A stretch of 64,000 nucleotides of DNA from Cocleimonas flava (GTDB lineage: Bacteria > Pseudomonadota > Gammaproteobacteria > Thiotrichales > Thiotrichaceae): contig NZ_SMFQ01000002.1 of the NCBI RefSeq assembly GCF_004339015.1, positions 62,001-126,000 of the forward strand, given 5' to 3'. This document shows, in pieces, positions 9,858 through 44,630 of this stretch. Numbering within the stretch: the stretch's first letter is position 1; each line of letters opens with the position of its first letter. Under the pieces are notes generated by a model. It worked only from the letters and a program-made list of their open reading frames with translations, ran no database searches and was not told where the DNA came from. The translations under genes were made by a program, and so were the position numbers.

Positions 9858-9942
9858 ATGAAGTCGATTTTTTATTGCTATAGTTTTTATTGTCATAGTA
9901 TAGGGATACTTGCTCGATCAACTACTTAGACATATAGTTACC

Positions 9943-10095
9943 ACAACTCAACGGAGTGCCGCGCAACATTCAAACGGCTGAGAGGTTTCACAACCGATCC
10001 GATGAACCTGAACCGGTTAGTACCGGCGTAGGGATGTGAGTTGAAGCTGTTTACCCAGTTTAAAACTTCTGCATCTCTCCGTTTTTATTGGAGAC
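9943..10095 (+). promoter_or_regulatory. TPP riboswitch controlling thiBPQ
   Basis: Aptamer at 9943-10044. P1 is CAACTC (9944-9949) with GAGTTG (10038-10043). The conserved GGCTGAGAGG, TGAACCTGAACCGGTTAG and ACCGGCGTAGGGA blocks are all present. Expression platform: TCTCC (10076-10080) can pair with GGAGA (10090-10094), the ribosome-binding site of thiB. The overlapping CATCTC (10072-10077) can instead pair with GGGATG (10031-10036) of the aptamer end, with one G-U pair. This suggests translational repression when TPP is bound. Confidence 0.95.
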
Positions 10096-13503: not shown

Positions 13504-13602
13504 TTGCTAGATTTAACCCTGCAATTTATGGCTATATTGATGAATATATCGGCTTCCTGAGCTTTAATCTTGCACTTTCAAGGTTCTCTACTATACTAAC
13601 CG

Positions 13603-13806
13603 CCATCGCCTGGGGGTGGTTGTTGTATTTATTTTCATATAATTTAATAAATTCAACGTAACCTGAGATTCCGTGAGGAAGACCCTAAGAACCTGATCTG
13701 GATAATACCAGCGTAGGGATAGGTAATGTCTTTCTCGATCTAGCTTTGTCATTTAAAGCTATGAATCTACCAAGCATGTCTCCTATCCCATTTTTATTTT
13801 TAGGAG
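13603..13806 (+). promoter_or_regulatory. TPP riboswitch controlling the thiamine TonB receptor unit
   Basis: Conserved blocks CTGAGA, ACCCTAAGAACCTGATCTGG and TACCAGCGTAGGGA mark the aptamer (about 13603-13726), with a long variable P3 arm between GGGGGTGG and CTGAGA. Expression platform: CTCCTA (13780-13785) can pair with TAGGAG (13801-13806), the ribosome-binding site of the next gene. The overlapping CCTATCCC (13782-13789) pairs perfectly with GGGATAGG (13716-13723) at the aptamer end. The two pairings exclude each other, fitting translational control. Confidence 0.95.
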
Positions 13807-40443: not shown

Positions 40444-40836
40444 TTAACGTTTAGAGAACTGAGTCGCTCTACGTGCTTTACGAAGACCAACCTTCTTACG
40501 CTCAACTTTTCTTGCATCACGAGTTAAGTAACCCGCTTTCTTTAGTGTACCGCGTAGGCTTTCATCGTACTTAAGTAATGCACGTGCAATACCTAAACGA
40601 ATCGCGCCAGCTTGACCACTGTCGCCACCACCTTTTACTGTAACCATAAGGTCAAAACTTTCACTGTTCTCTGTAGTAACCAATGGTTGCTTAAGAATCA
40701 TGTGAGCTGTTTCACGTCCAAAGTACTCTTCAAGTGGAAGCTTGTTGATTACGATGTTGCCCGTTCCTTTGCTCATGAAAACACGCGCTGAAGAAGATTT
40801 GCGACGTCCGGTTCCGTAGTATTGTGTAGTTGCCAT
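40444..40836 (-). CDS. rpsI: 30S ribosomal protein S9
   Basis: 130 residues, normal length. [19 protein letters not shown] at the start and the basic end [17 protein letters not shown]; the terminal Lys-Arg contacts the P-site tRNA. It follows rplM after four nt, the conserved rplM-rpsI operon. Confidence 0.99.
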
Positions 40837-40840
40837 GTTT

Positions 40841-41272
40841 TTAAATCTCTAATGCTAGTGGTTGCTGAGCGTGATGATTGTGCTCAGGACCTGCGTAAAC
40901 TTTTAATTTTCTGTACATCTCACGACCTAAAGGACCTTTTGGAAGCATTCCTTTAACTGCAAGCTCGATAACACGCTCAGGCTTGTCATCTAACATCTTA
41001 CTTAAAGATGCTTCTTTCAGATTACCAACATAACCAGTATGTCTGTAATACATCTTGTTCTTAAGCTTGTTACCAGTCACGTAGATTTTCTCAGCGTTAA
41101 CGATAACAATGTAGTCACCTGTATCAACGTGTGGTGTGTATGTCGGCTTGTGCTTACCACGTAAACGTAAAGCTACTTCACTTGCCAAACGTCCAAGTGT
41201 TTTACCTTCAGCATCGATGACAAACCAGTCACGTTTTACTTCAGCAGGTTTAGTACTAACTGTAATTCCCAT
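40841..41272 (-). CDS. rplM: 50S ribosomal protein L13
   Basis: 143 residues. [20 protein letters not shown], then [19 protein letters not shown] and [13 protein letters not shown] are the L13 motifs. GGAG precedes the ATG at 41272 by seven nt; an in-frame ATG 14 codons upstream would give a non-native N-terminal extension. First gene of the operon with rpsI. Confidence 0.98.
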
Positions 41273-41556
41273 TTCAATTCTCCAGAAATGAAGGTCTATT
41301 CTTGCAAAAGCCAATGACCGCTCGACACACTCATCAACTAATAAATTATGAATGAACTGATTACTCTCTATCTAGGTGTATAAAATACACAAAAGATTCT
41401 GTTGAGCACTCAGATTCAAAGAACGCGACATTTTAGGAGAATCCCACCCAGTATTCAAGCAGTACTTTCAATTAAATCCTTTTTTTTACTAATAAAAGGC
41501 ACATCTGCTTCAAATATGGATTTAAAACCTAAACAATATCGTTTTTTTACTCTCGA

Positions 41557-43044
41557 TTATTTCACTACATCAAGTTTAAGGGTCGATAATGTATCTTCGC
41601 GAATACTCATAAATAAATTTTCATGAGATACAATCGATATACCGTAAGACGGAATAATCTCTTTAACTCTGGTTTGCCATTCTTCTGTGGCAAGCCGATC
41701 AGCAAAACATTCTTCAATCGTTTCTAATATTATGGGAACAAGTAATGAAGCCCCCGGGGATGCACCTAAAAGCGCAGCCAAGGTTCCATCAGAAGAATGC
41801 ACGACTTCGGTACCAAATTCGATCTTACCGCCATCTTCTTCACACTTCTTAATGATTTGAACACGCTGCCCTGCGGTTAATAAAGTCCAGTCTTCTTCTT
41901 TAGCTTCCGGGTAATACTCACGTAAGGCTTTCATGCGCGCGCCTGATGACTGGAAAGTCTCCTTGATCAAATACTTGATCAAATCAAAGCTTTTCATACC
42001 AACTCTCATCATTGGCCAAATATTATTTAAACGAATCGATTTAAATAAATCCAACACTGAACCTTTCTTTAAAAACTTTGTGGTAGAACCCGCAAATGGT
42101 CCAAATAATAATGCCTTTTCATCACCAATGATTCTGGCATCTAAATGCGGCACCGACATTGGTGGTGCGCCTACAGAAGCTTTACCATAGACTTTGGCCA
42201 TGTGGCGTTTAACAATTTCCGGGTTTTTACAGACCAGGAATTGCCCACTCACGGGGAAACCACCATAACCATTTCCTTCTGGAATGCCTGATTTCTGTAA
42301 CAAAGGTAGAGATGCTCCACCTGCACCAATAAAAACGAAACCAGCTTTGATATCGTAATTTTCAGCAGTTACTTCATCTTTCAATGAAACCGTCCAACGC
42401 TTATCAGCATCTTGTTTTAAATCTTTTACTGACGTATTCAGCAGTAAGTCGAAATGATCCTGCGTCTTCATGTGCTCGATCATACCTAAACTTACAGCGG
42501 CAAAATTCACATCAGTGCCATACGGAACTCGCGTCGCTGCAACTTTTTGAGAAGGATCTCTGCCTTCCATGACCAAAGGCATCCATTCTTTTATTTCTTC
42601 AGGATCTTCCGAGAATTCCATCGCCGCAAACATAGGGTGACCTATTAGCGCTGCATGACGCTTGCGCAAGAATTCAACATTATCTTCACCCCAGACAAAG
42701 CTCACATGAGGCACAGGGTTAATGAATTTTGTAGGTTCAGGCAATGCACCCAATTTAACTAGATACGACCAGTATTGAAGACTTACTTCGTACCTTGCAT
42801 TAATCCCGTAAGCCCTTTCAACATTCACACTGCCGTCTGGCTGTTGAGGGGTATAATTAAGTTCACAATAAGCGGCGTGCCCTGTACCTGCGTTATTCCA
42901 ACCATCACTACTTTCCTGCAATGGTTTATCAAGACGCTCAACAATAACAACAGATAAATCAGGATCCAATTGCTTCAGCATAGAGCCCAAAGTGGCACTC
43001 ATTGCTCCTGCTCCTACCAGTAGAATATCAACTTCTTTAATCAT
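41557..43044 (-). CDS. mqo: Malate:quinone oxidoreductase
   Basis: 495 residues, membrane-peripheral FAD enzyme that oxidises malate to oxaloacetate and reduces quinone, bypassing NAD-linked Mdh. FAD motif LLVGAGAMSATLGSMLKQL; SDGWNNAGTGHAAYCELNYT, GYGGFPVSGQFLVCKNP and LLGASPGASLLVPIILE are MQO signatures. With FumC (58.1 kb) and the FadE-FadI-FadJ unit it belongs to respiratory TCA/beta-oxidation metabolism. Weak ribosome-binding site. Confidence 0.96.
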   Translation of the reverse strand: MIKEVDILLVGAGAMSATLGSMLKQLDPDLSVVIVERLDKPLQESSDGWNNAGTGHAAYCELNYTPQQPDGSVNVERAYGINARYEVSLQYWSYLVKLGALPEPTKFINPVPHVSFVWGEDNVEFLRKRHAALIGHPMFAAMEFSEDPEEIKEWMPLVMEGRDPSQKVAATRVPYGTDVNFAAVSLGMIEHMKTQDHFDLLLNTSVKDLKQDADKRWTVSLKDEVTAENYDIKAGFVFIGAGGASLPLLQKSGIPEGNGYGGFPVSGQFLVCKNPEIVKRHMAKVYGKASVGAPPMSVPHLDARIIGDEKALLFGPFAGSTTKFLKKGSVLDLFKSIRLNNIWPMMRVGMKSFDLIKYLIKETFQSSGARMKALREYYPEAKEEDWTLLTAGQRVQIIKKCEEDGGKIEFGTEVVHSSDGTLAALLGASPGASLLVPIILETIEECFADRLATEEWQTRVKEIIPSYGISIVSHENLFMSIREDTLSTLKLDVVK

Positions 43045-43326: not shown

Positions 43327-43407
43327 AAAAAAAAAGCAGCTCAAATTTGAGCTGCTAAATACCACCAAAGGAGGATGGATGAGGGAATCAGTATCTAAAC
43401 TGAATAT
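43327..43407 (-). ncRNA. Candidate small regulatory RNA with anti-Shine-Dalgarno stretch
   Basis: About 81 nt on the minus strand. It ends in a strong intrinsic terminator: stem GCAGCTCAAA/TTTGAGCTGC followed by nine U (43327-43335). A near-consensus promoter lies at its other end (separate entry). Before the terminator hairpin comes the C/U-rich stretch CUCAUCCAUCCUCCUUUGG; CCUCCUUU is complementary to ribosome-binding sites of the AAAGGAGG type. It lies in the 554-nt gap between mqo and the YiiX-like gene. No coding potential convincing to me. Confidence 0.6.
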
Positions 43408-43413
43408 TCTTAT

Positions 43414-43442
43414 ATAATAATACACTTATATACTAATGTCAA
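43414..43442 (-). promoter_or_regulatory. Near-consensus sigma-70 promoter of the small RNA
   Basis: On the minus strand: -35 TTGACA (43437-43442), a spacer of exactly 17 nt, and -10 TATTAT (43414-43419). Only one mismatch to the full sigma-70 consensus. Confidence 0.7.
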
Positions 43443-43598
43443 TTAAGGCTAAAAATAAAAAAATAACTTAATCATGGGTCTAAATATTCTTATTAAACGT
43501 TTCTATTTATAATCTAATACAGTTATATCTTCTCTTATAAGCTAAACTAAAAAGGCTGTATAATTAAAGACATAACATGAAATATGAGGAATAGATTC

Positions 43599-44630
43599 AT
43601 GTTTAATAGCTTACGCAACGCACTCTGGGAAAATATTGTTGGCTGGCTTAACGATATCCCCAAAAGCAATCAAAACATGCAGGCAATAAATAATTATGAG
43701 GATATGCTTCGTAATTTACGCCCTGCTGACGTCATCCTATTTGAGGGAAAAGCCCGCGTTAGCGAAGTTATTAAAATCATCACTCTTTCACCATGGACGC
43801 ATGCCGCACTTTATATAGGCAGTCTCAACGAAATTACCAACCCTGAAACAAAATCAATAGTAAAACAACATTTCGATGGTGACCCAGATGAACCCCTTAT
43901 CGCTGAATCACTATTAGGGTTTGGTACCGTTGTTAATAAACTCTCCGACTATAAAAACGATAACCTTAGAGTTTGCCGACCTGAAGGCTTGAGCGTTGAA
44001 GACCAGAATGAGGTTGTAGGATTCGCCGCCGAACATTTGGGGATTGAATACGATGTGCGTCAATTACTCGATTTAGCGCGTTTTATGTTTCCTTATGCTG
44101 TTTTACCCAGACAATGGCGCTCTTCCCTGTTCCAGCATAATGCCGGAAGGCCAACTAATATTGTGTGCTCCAGTATGATTGCGCGATGCTTTCATAGTGT
44201 TCACTACCCCATATTACCCACCATAGAAGGCGATCATAAAGATCAGCTTAAATTCCATAAACGCAACTTCCGTTTATTCGTGCCATCAGATTTTGATTAC
44301 TCACCCTATTTCGATGTACTTAAGTTTCCAGCCTGGCCCATCTCCTTGAGTCAAAGCTACCGGGATTTGCCTTGGCACGAAGAACACATAGAAACCGCAT
44401 TAAAACCACAAATTATTTCGTCTGATGACAGTAATGATAAAAGCAACAATGATGAAATCGATAATGGTGCTGATACTGATGATCAGAAAAATGATTTAGT
44501 TGGTGTATCAAATACTGCAACAGTTACAATTGAAGAAAACCAAACAGAAAACAAAAATTCGACTGCCAGCTTTCTAGAAACTTTAATTAAAAAAACAAGG
44601 TCGAAACCAGAAACTAAATTACCTACCTAG
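43599..44630 (+). CDS. YiiX-like permuted NlpC/P60 (papain-fold) protein
   Basis: 343 residues. LRPADVILFEGKARVSEVIK, then SPWTHAALYIG (candidate catalytic His) and NIVCSSMIARCF (candidate Cys) follow the circularly permuted papain-fold amidase/lipid-acyl family of YiiX/YebB. The C-terminal 80 residues are acidic, Asn/Asp-rich and probably disordered, ending in a basic stretch. The ATG at 43599 has GAGGA eight nt upstream; an ATG at 43584 has none. It lies 10 nt before fadE, so it may be the first gene of the fatty-acid operon, suggesting an acyl-ester or lipid substrate. This is inference. Confidence 0.8.
   Translation: MFNSLRNALWENIVGWLNDIPKSNQNMQAINNYEDMLRNLRPADVILFEGKARVSEVIKIITLSPWTHAALYIGSLNEITNPETKSIVKQHFDGDPDEPLIAESLLGFGTVVNKLSDYKNDNLRVCRPEGLSVEDQNEVVGFAAEHLGIEYDVRQLLDLARFMFPYAVLPRQWRSSLFQHNAGRPTNIVCSSMIARCFHSVHYPILPTIEGDHKDQLKFHKRNFRLFVPSDFDYSPYFDVLKFPAWPISLSQSYRDLPWHEEHIETALKPQIISSDDSNDKSNNDEIDNGADTDDQKNDLVGVSNTATVTIEENQTENKNSTASFLETLIKKTRSKPETKLPT

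Follow-up and report, generated by a model that had tools for sequence, protein, structure and literature searches.

A predicted anti-Shine-Dalgarno small RNA gene in Cocleimonas flava, a probable gammaproteobacterial counterpart of the RF02278 RNAs

Between mqo and a divergently oriented YiiX/YaeF-like gene in Cocleimonas flava, the minus strand carries what looks like a complete short transcription unit with a sequence resembling the 3′ end of 16S rRNA. Whether this is a free-standing small RNA (sRNA) gene, and what its RNA could do, is the question that this locus raises. The parts of the unit and its neighbors in the window, by which we mean the whole stretch of 64,000 nucleotides that was analyzed, are the following.

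43584-44630, plus strand: YiiX/YaeF-like permuted papain-fold gene, the divergent neighbor (Pfam PF05708)
43437-43442, minus strand: −35 hexamer TTGACA, aligned in 18 family members, most of them exact
43414-43419, minus strand: −10 hexamer TATTAT, separated from the −35 hexamer by a 17-nt spacer
43327-43407, minus strand: predicted sRNA of 81 nt, ending with a U run
43388-43403, minus strand: 5′ hairpin UCAGU/ACUGA, from the fold and from helix covariation in the family
43365-43383, minus strand: anti-Shine-Dalgarno seed CUCAUCCAUCCUCCUUUGG, with the family consensus CUCCUCCAUCCUCCUUUGG
43362-43378, minus strand: seed hairpin CCAUCCUCCUUUGGUGG, 5 pairs with a bulged U and a UCCUUU loop
43335-43356, minus strand: terminator stem-loop, followed by a U run (nine U) to 43327
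41557-43044, minus strand: mqo, malate:quinone oxidoreductase (Pfam PF06039)
41430-41458, minus strand: promoter-like TTGAAT-17-TAAAAT ahead of rplM, recognized by eye
40841-41272, minus strand: rplM, ribosomal protein L13, the usual downstream neighbor of the sRNA in relatives
40444-40836, minus strand: rpsI, ribosomal protein S9

The preliminary description of this locus had proposed a near-consensus promoter, an 81-nt body and a perfect terminator between mqo and the YiiX-like gene, and most of this layout is borne out. TTGACA, a 17-nt spacer and TATTAT are found on the minus strand at 43442-43414, with 11 of 12 consensus matches in the two hexamers, and Pfam confirms both neighbors. The body measures 81 nt from 43407, a predicted start placed 7 nt past the −10 hexamer, to 43327, where the U run ends. 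The nine U of the terminator are present, but the perfect 10-bp stem is not, since in the predicted fold the 22-nt palindrome forms 9 base pairs around a 4-nt loop, followed by U. The whole predicted RNA folds into three hairpins (the 5′ hairpin, the short seed hairpin and the terminator, in this order) at −23.7 kcal/mol, with a z score of −5.1 and none of 200 shuffles as good. In 801 nt there is 1 terminator-like site, compared with 0.5 ± 0.7 in shuffles, and the 3 promoter-like sites in this AT-rich DNA are not rare, 4.1 ± 1.8 being expected from shuffles. Because shuffled DNA yields promoter-like matches at least as often, the case for an sRNA gene rests on conservation.

This conservation is extensive: promoter and seed are kept in relatives, and the family is spread across the class. 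A blastn search with the sRNA matched 25 of 57 genomes at E ≤ 1e-3, its own included, and 47 of 57 at E ≤ 1. Within the genus, 7 of the 11 other genomes match at E ≤ 1e-3, and the four without a match (G003, G005, G008, and G011) are each 80% to 89% complete. The core alone matches by blastn in three other families (G044, G050, and G054) at E of about 1.2e-3, and an exact 19-nt pattern occurs in at least 118 stretches in named genomes, with Thiothrix, Thiocapsa, Chromatium, Allochromatium, Thioalkalivibrio, Sedimenticola, Arenicella, Beggiatoa, Thiomargarita, and others among the matches listed. Some of the matches to this pattern are titled just “Gammaproteobacteria,” “Proteobacteria,” or “bacterium.” One sRNA copy (L149, 4060-4132, minus strand) is on a contig titled as an Acidobacteriota family; this is probably a stray contig, because its rplM is 74% identical to that of the window. 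Multiple copies occur as well: a genome of the same genus (G009) has two full-length copies on separate contigs (G009:C151 and G009:C169), and Thiotrichaceae bacterium STC_44 has three tandem core copies about 100 to 120 nt apart (L085, 5786-6025, plus strand).

A search model built from the gammaproteobacterial places (R1) and run partly on genomes that also supplied training sequences matched 146 of 369 class genomes at E ≤ 1e-3 and 108 of 369 at E ≤ 1e-7. In a phylum-wide draw, the same model matched 28 of 299 genomes at E ≤ 1e-3, five of them outside the class with 28 to 36 bits, and 5 of 299 at E ≤ 1e-7, all within the class and the window's own genome included. Four R1-hit loci of 32 to 36 bits in f160 proved to be PrrF in an Rfam scan, so some of the matches counted at E ≤ 1e-3 are false, and weight is given to the counts at E ≤ 1e-7. 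The family comparisons below draw on 147 places, which are the distinct core segments from loci L001-L179 (28 from relatives' genomes, 103 from named genomes, and 16 from the RF02278 search of class genomes). Four places were dropped, two in L085 and one in L161 because no U run was in range and one in L094 because it runs off the locus. Removal of near-duplicates, tails over 46 nt and L072 from the 147 leaves 92 non-redundant places, 57 of which form the alignment.

Across these 57 aligned places, ACUCCUCCAUCCUCCUUUGGUGGU recurs nearly letter for letter. The terminator sequence varies freely while its pairing is kept, with all 8 of 8 pairs changing on both sides somewhere among the 57 sequences; this count was reached by 19 of 500 shuffles, and the whole-structure covariation score of 0.345 (0.145 shuffled) by none of 500. 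In the 5′ helix, each of the 4 pairs shows two-sided changes somewhere among the 18 full-length family members. The seed hairpin, by contrast with these helices, is nearly invariant in the 57 sequences, and because it hardly varies, covariation neither supports nor opposes it. As for the promoter, the exact −35 hexamer is absent in L007, L009, L020, and L022 within the alignment of 18 family members, and for the 85 nt preceding the core the promoter score lies above all 100 resampled controls. In 73 of 144 places a promoter (p ≤ 0.05) was found no more than 85 nt from the core, and in the other 71 none was, which suggests that in many cases the 5′ end may result from processing or be located further upstream. 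The 5′ end of the Bordetella pertussis RNA S17 is processed by RNase E immediately ahead of Site 1, according to the accessible part of its description (PMC11722255).

The seed had been described as exposed, and this applies to part of it: CUCAU is single-stranded in the predicted fold, while the remainder, CCAUCCUCCUUUGGUGG, is paired as a short hairpin with a UCCUUU loop. The tail of 16S rRNA in the organism's own genome is GGATCACCTCCTTAAAG, and CCTCCTT is common to this tail and the sRNA, so that the proposed free-standing sRNA gene carrying an anti-Shine-Dalgarno seed is upheld by the conservation of promoter, terminator and seed together with this match. The first anti-Shine-Dalgarno site of the window copy is CUCAUCC; CTCCTCCA is found in 113 of 147 places, and comparison of the consensus CUCCUCCAUCCUCCUUUGG with CUCAUCCAUCCUCCUUUGG indicates that the first site is altered in the window copy. 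The terminator loop contains CCC in 57 of 146 places and GGG in none (one of the 147 has no clear loop), and in the window it is AAUU, with no C-run. Seven loci (L040, L056, L058, L100, L113, L122, and L141) have terminator-region C runs of about 9 to 11, which are the extreme of the C-rich third loop.

The closest comparison that we found is with RF02278, the Betaproteobacteria toxic sRNA, which matches the window RNA over 64 of 64 positions at 36.0 bits (E of 9.7e-6 for 401 bases), below the Rfam cut-off of 50 bits. No Rfam family reaches its gathering score for the window RNA, and the RF02278 gathering threshold was likewise not reached in the 16 relatives' loci scanned. Two hairpins followed by a U run, a feature of RF02278, are present in the window RNA (model positions 1-64, and folds), as is an anti-Shine-Dalgarno CUCC in or at the loop of the first hairpin, here the UCCUUU loop; the 5′ single-stranded CUCCUCC known as Site 1 is absent, with CUCAUCC in its place. 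In the class, 84 of 229 genomes match RF02278 at E ≤ 0.01, with 2 of 229 over the cut-off, compared with 1 of 14 control genomes (Caulobacter), below the cut-off. In the order of G258, which we infer to be Burkholderiales because the RF02278 family is at home there, 40 of 60 genomes match at E ≤ 1e-3 and 24 exceed the cut-off, with 0 of 14 controls. Taking the best match per genome gave 30 Burkholderiales-type loci, and in one of these (L200) the 22-nt core CTCCTCCATCCTCCTTTGGTGG is identical letter for letter. Two genomes, G269 and G317, contain 9 and 8 RF02278 matches, respectively.

The RF02278 RNAs of Burkholderia cenocepacia (ncS03, ncS05, ncS27/BdhR1, and ncS62) are double-hairpin RNAs, and the gammaproteobacterial RNAs resemble the family in having a CU-rich 5′ site, a hairpin with an anti-Shine-Dalgarno loop, a terminator hairpin, and a place upstream of rplM, with rplM and rpsI following the RNA in 16 of 30 Burkholderiales-type loci. 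They differ in that the seed hairpin, which has a bulged U, is in most cases some 3 nt shorter than its counterpart in the Burkholderiales-type loci, and in that they carry a covarying 5′ hairpin; the window copy further differs by its CUCAUCC and by a terminator loop free of a C-run. Sequence, anatomy, and position taken together lead us to read the gamma and beta RNAs as probably homologous. Since the RF02278 score stays below the cut-off and Site 1 is not exact, we file the window RNA beside RF02278, as a gammaproteobacterial branch, and not inside it.

Other families fit less well. A match to sbrA (RF01489) scored 27.7 bits against a threshold of 45. PrrF (RF00444) resembles the window RNA in having a CUCCUC stretch and a terminator and accounts for weak R1 hits in f160 genomes, and Rfam scans do not make the window RNA a PrrF. 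Alphaproteobacterial cuckoo/CcsR RNAs show the anti-Shine-Dalgarno sequence CCUCCUCCC in hairpin loops. In the same scans, an RtT RNA match adjoining a tRNA was seen at L133 5302-5423, and elsewhere in the window two TPP riboswitches (9942-10052 and 13602-13737, plus strand) score above the Rfam gathering score.

Among individual RNAs, S17 has, in the accessible part of its description (PMC11722255), CU-rich single-stranded sites, a terminator with nine T, its own sigma-A-type promoter with a 17-nt spacer as in the window, and targets at ribosome-binding sites, and the common C-rich third loop of the gamma set is reminiscent of the second loop of S17, known as Site 3. RNase E shortens the S17 transcript from 190 to 67 nt, whereas a length of 81 nt is predicted for the window RNA, and S17 adjoins coq7, unlike the window RNA (PMC11722255). 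The sibling NmsR sRNAs of Neisseria, in what is accessible of another study, likewise have two CU-rich unpaired stretches matching ribosome-binding-site regions and are, unlike the window RNA, a tandem pair (PMC5688073).

On this basis, we consider it probable that the locus is a free-standing gene for a trans-acting anti-Shine-Dalgarno sRNA, the gammaproteobacterial counterpart of the RF02278 RNAs (ncS27/BdhR1, S17). Judged from the sequence, the RNA would be transcribed from its own sigma-70-type promoter and would end at the intrinsic terminator. The almost invariant core, a single-stranded CUCC stretch plus a short hairpin with a UCCUUU loop, appears to copy the anti-Shine-Dalgarno end of 16S rRNA, and by homology it would pair in trans with the Shine-Dalgarno regions of mRNAs, keeping ribosomes off. 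In the S17 study, as far as its accessible text goes, S17 represses BP2158 via Site 1, as supported by compensatory mutants, and 92 genes rise without S17, 70 of which have matching sites, while for two candidate targets no effect was seen (PMC11722255). Inhibition of Escherichia coli growth by cloned members of the RF02278 family is reported in partial sources; exponential growth of E. coli BL21 is unimpaired by S17 (accessible part of PMC11722255), which counts against a plain toxin.

The start regions in the window gave no clear targets, as 32% of 57 reach −12 kcal/mol compared with 24% of 500 random places. The best duplex among these 57 start regions is with rplM (−20.5 kcal/mol), yet about 10% of shuffles equal it, and no signal appeared in the relatives' loci, in the 62 of 81 linked loci with a start codon near the aligned start; rplM was therefore rejected as a candidate target.

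Sharing CCTCCTT with the 16S tail would also suit a general Shine-Dalgarno decoy, a mimic of that tail which lowers total translation and has no particular mRNAs as targets. The linkage with a ribosomal-protein operon would agree with such a role, as would the growth effects of the homologue ncS27, whose overexpression slows growth and whose antisense speeds it (accessible part of PMC5688073). We regard this as unlikely, because the S17-responsive set is limited, the growth of BL21 is unimpaired by S17, and the whole 22-nt core is conserved, beyond what an anti-Shine-Dalgarno sequence alone would need.

The suggestion that the sRNA acts as an Hfq-dependent repressor did not find support, as two Hfq models detected no hfq in the organism's own 10-contig assembly. 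Among the homologues compared here, Hfq binding has been demonstrated for S17 alone (accessible part of PMC11722255). The hfq gene is present in all 11 other genus genomes searched, and Hfq was confirmed in one of them, G007. The gene beside hfq in G007 (L302) is one that we take to be hflX, and it has only 27% to 40% matches to other proteins in the assembly of C. flava. With this neighbor missing too, an assembly gap is indistinguishable from loss, and we do not claim that the absence of hfq is real.

The position of the sRNA relative to rplM-rpsI bears both on its ancestry and on whether it acts in cis. Downstream and on the same strand, rplM is found in 83 of 147 places, 81 of these at 87 to 892 nt; 52 places, the window and G007 among them, have no rplM in the flank (flanks of 0.9 to 7.8 kb), and the remaining 12 have flanks under 600 nt. 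Among the 89 R1 hits with fetched flanks, which overlap partly with the 147 places and include 60 regions taken non-randomly from stronger hits, rplM is present in 62 (60 within 700 nt), and absent in 25, while the flank is too short in 2. In the window and G007, mqo lies between the sRNA and rplM, which is 2 kb away; in the genus members L005, L006, L008, and L009, rplM is 239 to 505 nt behind the sRNA, no rplM was found within 1.5 kb in L007, and the flank of L003 is too short. In B. cenocepacia, the accessible parts of two studies place ncS27 between BCAL3348a and BCAL3349 (PMC4603805) and BCAL3348 among ribosomal-protein genes with short 5′UTRs (PMC5688073). Copies away from rplM, which we take as relocated or additional copies, include L030, L036, L042, L061, and L118, some of them near tgt/queA-like genes by eye. 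Burkholderiales and these Gammaproteobacteria probably inherited the gene from a common ancestor in which it stood immediately ahead of rplM-rpsI.

Given that the sRNA is close upstream of rplM on the same strand in those 81 of 147 places, and that in E. coli L13 controls its own operon, rplM-rpsI, the RNA could act in cis, as leader or attenuator for the gene that follows, ancestrally rplM and in the window mqo. A terminator with a U run intervenes, and a separate promoter-like site precedes rplM in 37 of the 68 gaps of ≤350 nt at p ≤ 0.05 (52 of 68 at p ≤ 0.1), with the one in the window found by eye at 41458-41430. The sRNA also persists where rplM is 2 kb off behind mqo, in the window and G007, and in the 52 of 147 places without rplM in the flank, these two counted. 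Duplexes between the sRNA and the rplM start region are no better than those of shuffled sequences (mean z of −0.02 in 62 loci; own versus swapped, p of 0.96). A leader is for these reasons improbable; with rplM apparently retaining a promoter of its own and mqo intervening in this lineage, the sRNA appears to be an autonomous unit and not the leader of the gene behind.

That the conserved strand is the plus strand, with a perfect Shine-Dalgarno sequence adjoining the ATG of a leader peptide (AAAGGAGG-ATGG), is scarcely credible, given that frames from this ATG have a median of 12 aa (quartiles 5 to 20, 144 places) and that promoter, covarying terminator, and 5′ hairpin are all on the minus strand. 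Open reading frames through the core were considered on the other strand too and rejected, there being no conserved frame (sRNA-strand frames are open in 78, 106, and 98 of 147 segments). A fortuitous combination of promoter, hairpin, and terminator in AT-rich DNA, where promoter-like sites alone are as frequent as in shuffles, has a negligible likelihood in the face of class-wide conservation and covariation and of a core conserved far outside the genus.

The sRNA gene appears to be real and ordinary-looking, in a group that our analysis suggests is wider and older than its Rfam name says, with a mechanism assigned by homology. Three points go beyond the preliminary description: the RF02278 relationship, the linkage to rplM-rpsI that relatives show, and the change in the first site. 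Among the papers listed, those giving the accession RF02278 deal with Burkholderia, Herbaspirillum, and Bordetella. A “betaproteobacteria toxic small RNA” is named in the gammaproteobacterium Aeromonas salmonicida J223, one strain, among its unique ncRNAs, and in the accessible part of that report the likeness is by name alone (PMC8780938); Gammaproteobacteria are hence not wholly without an earlier report of such an RNA. The rplM linkage and the class-wide spread had no literature report among the matches listed. In the light of our data, RF02278 becomes a single branch of an sRNA that occurs widely among Gammaproteobacteria in the broad sense.

The nearly unchanged 22-nt core and the shared place before a ribosomal-protein operon point to the age of this RNA and to its likely ancestral locus. 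More speculatively, and at long odds in our own estimate, an ancestral anti-Shine-Dalgarno sRNA may have been kept beside the L13-S9 operon since before Burkholderiales parted from other Gammaproteobacteria because its synthesis is coupled to that of ribosomes. If this were true, each cell would make a mimic of the 16S tail beside its new ribosomes, only strong or uncovered start sites would compete, and the RNA would be a class-wide translation-priority switch. Whatever its role, the family provides environmental hosts beyond the known pathogens, such as Thiothrix, Thiocapsa, Allochromatium, and Thioalkalivibrio, in which to ask what purpose a conserved anti-Shine-Dalgarno RNA serves.
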